DNA of 32,543 bases from Candidatus Sungbacteria bacterium RIFCSPLOWO2_01_FULL_54_21 (GTDB taxonomy: Bacteria; Patescibacteriota; Minisyncoccia; Sungbacterales; HO2-52-23), in assembly GCA_001820725.1 (NCBI GenBank), contig MHQR01000009.1:1-32543 (forward strand). Direction: 5' to 3'. This document shows, piece by piece, positions 4,208 through 30,525 of the stretch. Under the pieces are notes generated by a model. That model did no database searches. It saw nothing but the letters and a program-made list of their open reading frames with translations, and was not told where the DNA came from. The stretch's first letter is position 1. Every line of letters begins with the position of its first letter. The translations under genes were made by a program, and so were the position numbers.

Positions 4208-4245
4208 AAAACATCCTTACAAACTCCAGTTTGTAAGGATGTTTT
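4208..4245 (-). terminator. Perfect 18-bp inverted repeat (2-nt spacer), likely terminator and/or operator-related palindrome
   Basis: AAAACATCCTTACAAACT-CC-AGTTTGTAAGGATGTTTT; on the minus strand it follows the wHTH gene stop and is followed by TTTTTACTG. Confidence 0.6.
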
Positions 4246-6784: not shown

Positions 6785-7580
6785 TATCCGCGCATTGCTC
6801 AAGCAATCTGCGTGCGTGGAGCGCGACGATGTGTTCATATGCCGCGAAGGAACGAAAACGATTGACAATCGTTTTCGGGCGGGCGAATCAGATCCTTTGA
6901 AAAAAATATTGCGGCGAGTACCGCGGCTGTATGAATTTCTCCTGTGGATTACGACCACCGTATTTTTCTATGGCTTGAGCGCGGAGCAGGCCATGCGGCG
7001 GGCGTTTCCTGATGCTAAAAACAGAATCATTCTCAATCTCGGCTCGGGCACAAGCGATTTCGGAAACACTGTCATCAATGTTGATGTCGCGCCCTTTGCC
7101 AATGTCCATGTCGTGGCCGATGCCGAGGACTTGCCGTTTCTGGATGCATCGGCAGACATGATCGTATCAGAATCCATGATTGAACACGTGCGCCGGCCGG
7201 AGCGCGGGATTGACGAGATGCGCCGCGTTATCAAGCACGGCGGATATGTGTATGTTGAAATGCCCTTTATCTTCCCATTCCACGCGTCCCCCAGCGATTA
7301 TACGCGCTTTACTATTGAGGGATTGCGCGATCGCTTTGAAGGATTTGACGTGATAAAAGCAGGAGCGCGCGCAGGTCCTGCAACCGCGCTGACGGTACAG
7401 CTCGCGTACACGCTGGCACTTTTACTTTCATTCGGCTCGCGGCATATGTATGGTACGCTCACGCATCTTTTTTTCGTGGCGCTCTTCCCCCTAAAAATAT
7501 TGGACCAGATATTCCGCATCTTCCCGAGCAAAAACCACGAGGCCGCAAACCACATTTATTTCTTCGCGCGGAAAACTTGA
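6762..7580 (+). CDS. Class I SAM-dependent methyltransferase
   Basis: Internal start MTDSQKNN at 6762 overlapping the previous stop. ILNLGSGTSDFGNTVINVDVAPFANVHVVADAEDLPFLDASADMIVSESMIEHVRRPERGIDEMRRVIKHGGYVYVEMPF is Methyltransf_11-like. Confidence 0.85.
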   Translation: MTDSQKNNIRALLKQSACVERDDVFICREGTKTIDNRFRAGESDPLKKILRRVPRLYEFLLWITTTVFFYGLSAEQAMRRAFPDAKNRIILNLGSGTSDFGNTVINVDVAPFANVHVVADAEDLPFLDASADMIVSESMIEHVRRPERGIDEMRRVIKHGGYVYVEMPFIFPFHASPSDYTRFTIEGLRDRFEGFDVIKAGARAGPATALTVQLAYTLALLLSFGSRHMYGTLTHLFFVALFPLKILDQIFRIFPSKNHEAANHIYFFARKT

Positions 7581-9294: not shown

Positions 9295-9317
9295 TGTTTG
9301 AAGTGGAACTTCAAACA
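9295..9317 (-). terminator. Perfect hairpin with U-tract between the Gfo/Idh/MocA and cupin genes
   Basis: Minus strand TGTTTGAAGT-TCC-ACTTCAAACA-CTTTTTTATG: 10-bp perfect stem, 3-nt loop, T6 directly before the cupin ATG. Confidence 0.6.
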
Positions 9318-29403: not shown

Positions 29404-30525
29404 TTAGAGCCTATGGTAGAGCGTTACATAGGCGCTCACGTGTTTTTCCCATGACATGGTGCGCGCAAACGCGAGAGAACGCGCCCCCATCTCTCCTTTC
29501 AACTTTTTATCGCGCAAAATCTTTGCAATCGCGTCGGCAAAGTCGTCGGGGTCGCGCGTGGATACAAGAATGCCGTTCTTGCCGTCCTCTACCGCGTCAT
29601 CAATCCCGCAGTTTTTACTCCCCACCACCGGCAGTCCTGCGGCCGCGGCTTCCAGAAACACGATACCGAATCCCTCCACATCGTGCAGGATATTTTGTGA
29701 AAACAAGCAAAATAGCTCGGCATTTTTATAGATTTCGGCAAGTGCCGTGCGGCTAGGTACGTCCTGTAAAATATGCACGCGGTTTCCGAGTCCAAGTTCG
29801 GCGATCAGATTTTTCAAACGGCGGTCATAGACATCAGTATAGCGCTTGCCGACGATGACATAATGGAGATCGGGAAACCTGTCCGCAATTTTGGCGAATG
29901 ACCGGATGCTGAAGTGATATCCCTTGCGCCAGCGCAATTGCCCAACACCGAGGATATAGGGCTTATATGCTTGTAGGTTGTAGGTCGTTGAAGCAAATGT
30001 CTTTGCTTCAACGGGTTGTAGGTTACTGTTTGCCGAAAATTCAGTTATATCTATACCCGGATTGATGACCGTGATTTTCAACTCCGGCATTTTTTTCAAG
30101 ATCTCATCCCGCGTAAACGCGCTGATCGCGGTGACGGCCGCGGCACGACGGTATGCCCAGCGCATAAACGGCGCGTAGCGCCAAAAATACAGAGGATGGA
30201 TAGAGCCCGTGCCGATTGCCGTAATGATGAGCTTTTTGCCAAGACCAATGGACGCGAGCGCCGCGATAAAGCCGTAGGGAAAAATGTCGAGCGCGTGCAC
30301 GACATCGCATTGCTTTATCAATCGCCGTATCTTGGGCAGTTCACGCAAAAGCGCCAGCCGGCTTGCATGAATCAAGGCGTGTTCGTTCGACTCACCTGAC
30401 GCTAGGGTCGTGAGTACGACTATTTCGGCAGGGAGCGCACGGGAAAGCTCCGTAATAAGGCGGCGGGAGAAAACCCCCGCCCCGTTATCCTGCCACAGAT
30501 TGTGCGCCAAAAAACAAATTTTCAT
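29404..30525 (-). CDS. Family 4 glycosyltransferase carrying a palindromic insertion
   Basis: MKICFLAHNLWQDNGAGVFSRRLITELSRAL; YILGVGQLRWRKGYHFSIRSFAKIADRFPDLHYVIVGKR; VEGFGIVFLEAAAAGLPVVGSKNCGIDDAVEDGKNGILV. Confidence 0.92.
   Translation of the reverse strand: MKICFLAHNLWQDNGAGVFSRRLITELSRALPAEIVVLTTLASGESNEHALIHASRLALLRELPKIRRLIKQCDVVHALDIFPYGFIAALASIGLGKKLIITAIGTGSIHPLYFWRYAPFMRWAYRRAAAVTAISAFTRDEILKKMPELKITVINPGIDITEFSANSNLQPVEAKTFASTTYNLQAYKPYILGVGQLRWRKGYHFSIRSFAKIADRFPDLHYVIVGKRYTDVYDRRLKNLIAELGLGNRVHILQDVPSRTALAEIYKNAELFCLFSQNILHDVEGFGIVFLEAAAAGLPVVGSKNCGIDDAVEDGKNGILVSTRDPDDFADAIAKILRDKKLKGEMGARSLAFARTMSWEKHVSAYVTLYHRL
29971..30022. repeat. Palindromic element flanked by TTGTAGG heptamers, inside the GT4 coding sequence
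   Basis: TTGTAGGTTGTAGGT + CGTTGAAGCAAA-TGTC-TTTGCTTCAACG (29986-30013, perfect 12-bp arms) + GGTTGTAGG. Confidence 0.75.

Follow-up and report, generated by a model that had tools for sequence, protein, structure and literature searches.

We consider it probable that the palindromic element found within a GT4 glycosyltransferase gene of a Candidatus Sungbacteria genome arose by in-frame insertion in two layers, where palindromes landed in heptamer arrays that were already present. The window, i.e. the whole stretch of DNA that was analysed (32,543 nucleotides), is contig C9 of the source genome G000 (767 kb, 37 contigs). In the first layer, arrays of CTACAAN, normally of four units (28 nt), occupy insertion-tolerant loops of housekeeping proteins and positions just 5' of start codons in this family of Parcubacteria. 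As comparison of orthologous sites shows, short palindromic mini-elements later entered individual heptamers, mostly at TTG^TAG and in some cases nearby with the loss of four bases, and were retained when the net change was a multiple of three. In the window, the GT-B interdomain linker holds such an array, and a 28-bp palindrome would have taken the place of TGTA in one of its heptamers. We found no account of palindromes nested in in-frame heptamer arrays in the open-licence literature, including for Parcubacteria. Here, repeats are nested in repeats within essential genes of a streamlined genome, and the target position becomes visible from empty versus filled orthologous sites. This brings two questions within reach of testing: the reason why seven-base units are so frequent among bacterial tandem repeats, and the way in which very small, gene-free palindromes move.

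An earlier note on this DNA described an inverted repeat with three TTGTAGG heptamers, and both proved exact to the base (Table 1). Compared with the uninterrupted mnmA array of genome G003, the interrupted heptamer is a TTGTAGG in which TGTA has been replaced, with a net gain of 24 nt. The element is translated as ...SNLQPVEAKTFASTTYNLQAYK... from the minus-strand ORF and the insert peptide is TFASTTYNLQAYKPYILGVGQLR. Perfect 12-bp stems with loops of 3-8 nt occur four times in the window, whereas 30 order-3 Markov sequences contain 0.03 on average. Since the G000 genome is palindrome-rich overall, the palindrome alone is weaker evidence than the existence of a second, exact copy that is framed by heptamers in the same way. 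Folding of the RNA, as proposed in the earlier note, gave a stable hairpin for the 28-bp palindrome (-15.9 kcal/mol, z -7.3), and an Rfam search with the element returned chance-level matches only.

Table 1. Positions in the window of the GT4 gene, the element and its parts
Feature	Position	Strand	Remark
GT4 glycosyltransferase gene	29404..30525	-	373 aa; element inside, frame intact
Whole element	29971..30022	-	three complete CTACAAC-type heptamers and palindrome within a fourth; about residues 168-185
Heptamer TTGTAGG	29971..29977	+	last by coding order
Heptamer TTGTAGG	29978..29984	+	third by coding order
Interrupted heptamer: T + 28-bp palindrome + GG	29985..30015	+	second by coding order; by comparison with uninterrupted G003 mnmA array
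Single T before palindrome	29985	+	
28-bp palindrome CGTTGAAGCAAA-TGTC-TTTGCTTCAACG	29986..30013	strandless	exact second copy at G000:C4:3701-3728, mnmA
Palindrome arm CGTTGAAGCAAA	29986-29997	+	
Palindrome loop TGTC	29998-30001	+	
Palindrome arm TTTGCTTCAACG	30002-30013	+	
GG after palindrome	30014-30015	+	
Heptamer TTGTAGG	30016..30022	+	first by coding order

The ORF is a GT4 glycosyltransferase and the element lies in the linker between its two GT-B domains, Pfam placing Glyco_transf_4 up to residue 161 and Glycos_transf_1 from residue 186. An AlphaFold model built from a shallow seven-sequence alignment has a mean pLDDT of 79.6 and a pTM of 0.81, with residues 167-176 below 50. This is consistent with a flexible loop; the earlier note had asked whether the insert forms a surface loop, and the segment is predicted as a low-confidence linker. 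The protein would tolerate the insert because the linker is disordered, and a benefit to the protein would be unnecessary. The gene was matched in 12 relatives. In-frame insertion, as proposed in the note, is supported by the orthologues of G003, G007 and G008, which are shorter by 33, 36 and 27 nt, respectively, between the same conserved residues. Extra residues are present as the note had expected, but the net gain is 9-12 aa and not 15-20 aa. A plain heptamer array is absent from the linker in all GT4 orthologues aligned. In G010, another insert occupies the site and contains CCCCCACACCAAATTTTGGTGTGGGGG (a palindrome as judged by eye), so that insertions have reached this linker repeatedly. 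In this G010 insert (L230), the direct repeat TCAGGAAT is found on both sides and may be a target duplication.

The 28-bp palindrome has two exact matches in the G000 genome, both genic, one in the window and one in mnmA. Both are framed by three heptamers in the same order, and about 55 nt of the two copies are identical except for one base, with order and orientation alike. Among 141 relatives, a single palindrome with three mismatches was found (G004), outside heptamer context; a search for further copies therefore yielded the one in mnmA but none at up to three mismatches in array context in these relatives. No plasmid relatives of the element were found. The mnmA gene of G003 contains AAC followed by two CTACAAC and two CTACAAA units, in the same phase as in G000, without the palindrome and 24 nt shorter; it is an empty site for the palindrome. 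The same mnmA loop holds an array of about four TCCGAAA heptamers in G005 (L257; G005:C19:3276-3303), with the peptide SEIRNPK, and an unrelated insert, read CHPERSEARLPDGQGS, in G006 (L245).

A search for interrupted arrays revealed that unrelated palindromes split heptamers in trmD, thrS, uvrB, murE, dnaE, argS and glycosyltransferase genes of other genomes. The split point is mostly TTG^TAG (CTA^CAA on the coding strand), and the frame is kept in all of them. The cut varies somewhat, since with the window's 28-nt palindrome in G000 and with the 16-nt TCCGCC type it lies close to this point and four bases are missing. In the worked cases, each interrupted heptamer had a net change divisible by three (+12, +21, +24, +27 or +30 nt). 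As selection acts in genes, these in-frame lengths are a product of selection and uninformative on the mechanism.

Plain orthologous arrays were found for trmD, thrS, uvrB, mnmA and a membrane glycosyltransferase. In trmD, G012 has four plain heptamers within 90 nt, where G003 has 132 nt with palindromes in heptamers 2 and 3 (+42 = 2 x 21). The plain thrS array of G010 corresponds to an interrupted one in G003 (+12), the plain uvrB arrays of G000 and G010 to a palindrome-bearing one in G020, and the plain array in a GT39-like membrane protein of G009 to a palindrome in G020. The 21-nt palindrome of G003, CCTGCCTGTCCGGTAGGCAGG (CCTGCC...GGCAGG), occurs in trmD, murE, a GT4 gene, a GT2 gene and one intergenic site; in trmD, one canonical and one degenerate copy occupy neighbouring heptamers, and murE carries a double insertion. 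Within 650 kb of G003, all canonical copies are in heptamer context, with TTG on the left in four of five, and no palindrome of this type was found in viral contigs. G020 carries one palindrome of about 27 nt in uvrB and dnaE and a different one in the membrane glycosyltransferase, and G066 has a 16-nt palindrome in an argS heptamer. Hence the idea of heptamer repeats as an insertion target is borne out: different palindromes sit at nearly the same heptamer point in several genomes, and orthologous arrays occur without them. These alignments demonstrate nesting, site preference and conservation of the frame. The element had also been proposed as an undescribed, protein-tolerated repeat family; it represents one family of a repeat system tolerated within proteins, its 28-bp palindrome having just two copies.

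The heptamers had been taken as brackets of the palindrome. They are present, but are in fact an older and far more widespread in-frame element, normally of four units. The most over-represented 8-mer of the G000 genome is TAGCTTGT/ACAAGCTA, and ten exact runs have a period of 7, against zero to three for each other period between 4 and 15, leaving aside 14 as a multiple of 7. We counted 15 arrays of three or more units in G000 and, over 650 kb, 14 in G003; five Markov genomes contained none. Eight arrays in G000 and five in G003 are genic, all 13 with exactly four units; at the loci examined, 37 of 43 arrays have four. Genic arrays are always on the CTACAA strand, which is free of stops, whereas the opposite strand of a four-unit array has TAG in every frame, and they encode (LQxTxYx) peptides. 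Array-bearing genes, named by similarity and in some cases confirmed against PDB chains, include those of PcrA, UvrB, ATP synthase gamma, FBA, MnmA, LeuRS, TsaD and glycosyltransferases. For ATP synthase gamma, FBA, PcrA, UvrB and LeuRS, the array is found at the same loop and phase across several genera. Each genome has its characteristic seventh base, which is C for G003 and G010, A for G009 and G012, and G for G001, G002, G008 and G020. Together with the orthologous positions, this points to common ancestry followed by homogenisation, although hot spots hit independently may also have produced the orthologous positions. An insertion of constant length was ruled out, as the net length relative to solved structures is about 0, +3, +4 or +7 aa, and native loop residues must therefore also have been lost or replaced.

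A second heptamer, TCCGAAA, likewise forms arrays of about four units, and CTACAAN arrays of more variable length are present in Pseudomonas, Alcanivorax, Flavobacteria and Chloroflexota records. Intergenic arrays often adjoin start codons, including those of rplX-like and rpsG-like genes. In G000, intergenic arrays are mostly CTACAAG and genic ones mostly CTACAAC. Some intergenic arrays, for example at C2:3036-3099, C17:2527-2606 and C34:10617-10676, consist of heptamers in inverted orientation on the two sides of a short spacer and end immediately 5' of start codons.

Since many essential genes of relatives carry similar arrays and different hairpins entered at about the same point of the heptamer, the arrays resemble landing pads that proteins tolerate. 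Tentatively, the orthologous positions, the genome-typical seventh base, the fixed unit number and the existence of more than one heptamer family might point to an actively maintained, homogenised system, written by a putative enzyme and serving as site-preferring landing pads for several palindromic mini-element families inside essential genes. We infer that the palindromes are non-autonomous elements mobilised in trans by a putative heptamer-recognising enzyme. The candidate would perhaps be a single-strand (Y1/HuH-type) transposase with a CTAC/GTAG target, since insertion is site-preferring and follows CTA(C) without a clear target duplication.

It is conceivable, if rather doubtful, that the whole 54-nt composite (one heptamer, the palindrome and two heptamers) is one mobile unit which was copied between mnmA and the GT4 gene. 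The near-identity of the two G000 copies in order and orientation would fit this, as would the aligned GT4 orthologues without a plain array at the site. However, G003 mnmA contains the array in equal phase at the corresponding place but lacks the palindrome, and both G003 and G020 have a palindrome that recurs in several arrays, each time in another heptamer, which requires separate insertion into existing arrays. For the 28-bp palindrome taken alone, with just two copies that agree in orientation and in the heptamer they occupy, movement of the composite is indistinguishable from two insertions. Tandem repeats and hairpins promote template-switching replication errors, and a palindrome with just two copies could have formed locally in this way without being mobile. 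This origin is highly improbable and largely refuted by the identical palindromes in unlinked arrays: the 28-nt one twice in G000, the 21-nt one at five places in G003 and the one of about 27 nt twice in G020. Selection of the array or hairpin as an mRNA or protein feature (pausing, an RNA-binding site or a functional peptide) would account for the fixed number of four units, the sites common across genera, the arrays immediately preceding the start codons of several genes (among them rplX-like and rpsG-like ones), and the stable hairpin. We regard it as quite unlikely, since unrelated proteins are affected, many orthologues have no array, other relatives have unrelated repeats in the same loop of mnmA, and the model confidence is low for the linker, as it would be for a flexible loop.

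It also seems unlikely that RAYT (Y1) transposases mobilise the palindromes as REP elements, with the GTAG of the heptamer as the tag tetranucleotide. GTAG-tagged REPs are palindromes of 20-40 nt, intragenic GTAG and CGTC REPs occur in repair genes, and REPs ending in GTAG are known in frame in uvrB, uvrA and UvrD genes (PMC3733652). The points of likeness are short hairpins by GTAG, sometimes in frame in uvrB and genes of UvrD-type helicases; a window palindrome (28 nt, 12-bp stem) within the 20-40 nt stem-loop criterion; and two to three RAYT genes each in G000, G003 and G020. In the window, the GTAG of a heptamer ends close to the 5' side of the stem without abutting it (GTAG-GT-stem), and in G003 and G020 it overlaps the 3' end of the stem. 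However, GTAG here is part of the heptamer and, in the exact cases, follows the stem instead of preceding it when the TTGTAG strand is read 5' to 3'. Copy number is low, with two copies, both genic, where REPs are high-copy and mostly intergenic. Moreover, the hairpins beside the RAYT genes in G000 and G003 are others, specific to these genes. Arrays are numerous in G009, where no RAYT match was obtained, and G006 and G007 have RAYTs and no arrays.

The suggested kinship with Rickettsia palindromic elements was not supported. Both are palindromic mini-elements in frame within protein genes of a small-genome bacterium, but, compared by description, the present one has 52 nt, shorter than the RPE-1 type, and is nested in tandem heptamers. 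RPE-4/6 carry a terminal CGTC tetranucleotide (PMC3733652), which is absent next to either stem end of the window palindrome. The element is filed neither as REP nor as RPE.

Heptanucleotide tandem repeats are known in bacteria, such as the TAACTGA repeats of Beggiatoaceae (PMC4679880). Like these, the cyanobacterial STRR and other long simple sequence repeats, the present arrays are short seven-base tandem repeats, several per genome and also 5' of start codons, with one strand read without stops and with units of 7 nt exceeding other periods. They differ in that many lie in conserved genes, with four fixed units, orthologous positions and a genome-typical seventh base, and in that they serve as a target for palindromes. 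Slippage-type variation in unit number was not evident among the 13 genic arrays, all with four units, or at the loci examined, with four in 37 of 43 arrays.

RAYT/REP was rejected as the maker of the arrays, as the presence of PF01797 does not follow them and the RAYT hairpins differ. In G000, three RAYT-like Y1 transposase genes (C30:3696, C18:28609 and C36:6830) each lie between their own pair of similar hairpins, which suggests several REP families in one 0.77-Mb genome; none of the three loci is flanked by the 28-bp palindrome. The window itself contains further palindromes: one with a 17-bp stem, AAAACATCCTTACAAACT-CC-AGTTTGTAAGGATGTTTT, at 4208-4245, with near copies at C4:2059 and C34:32516, and, at 9295-9317 and 6853-6877, members of two dispersed families of the TTTGAAGT type (14 copies) and the AAACGATT type (five copies).
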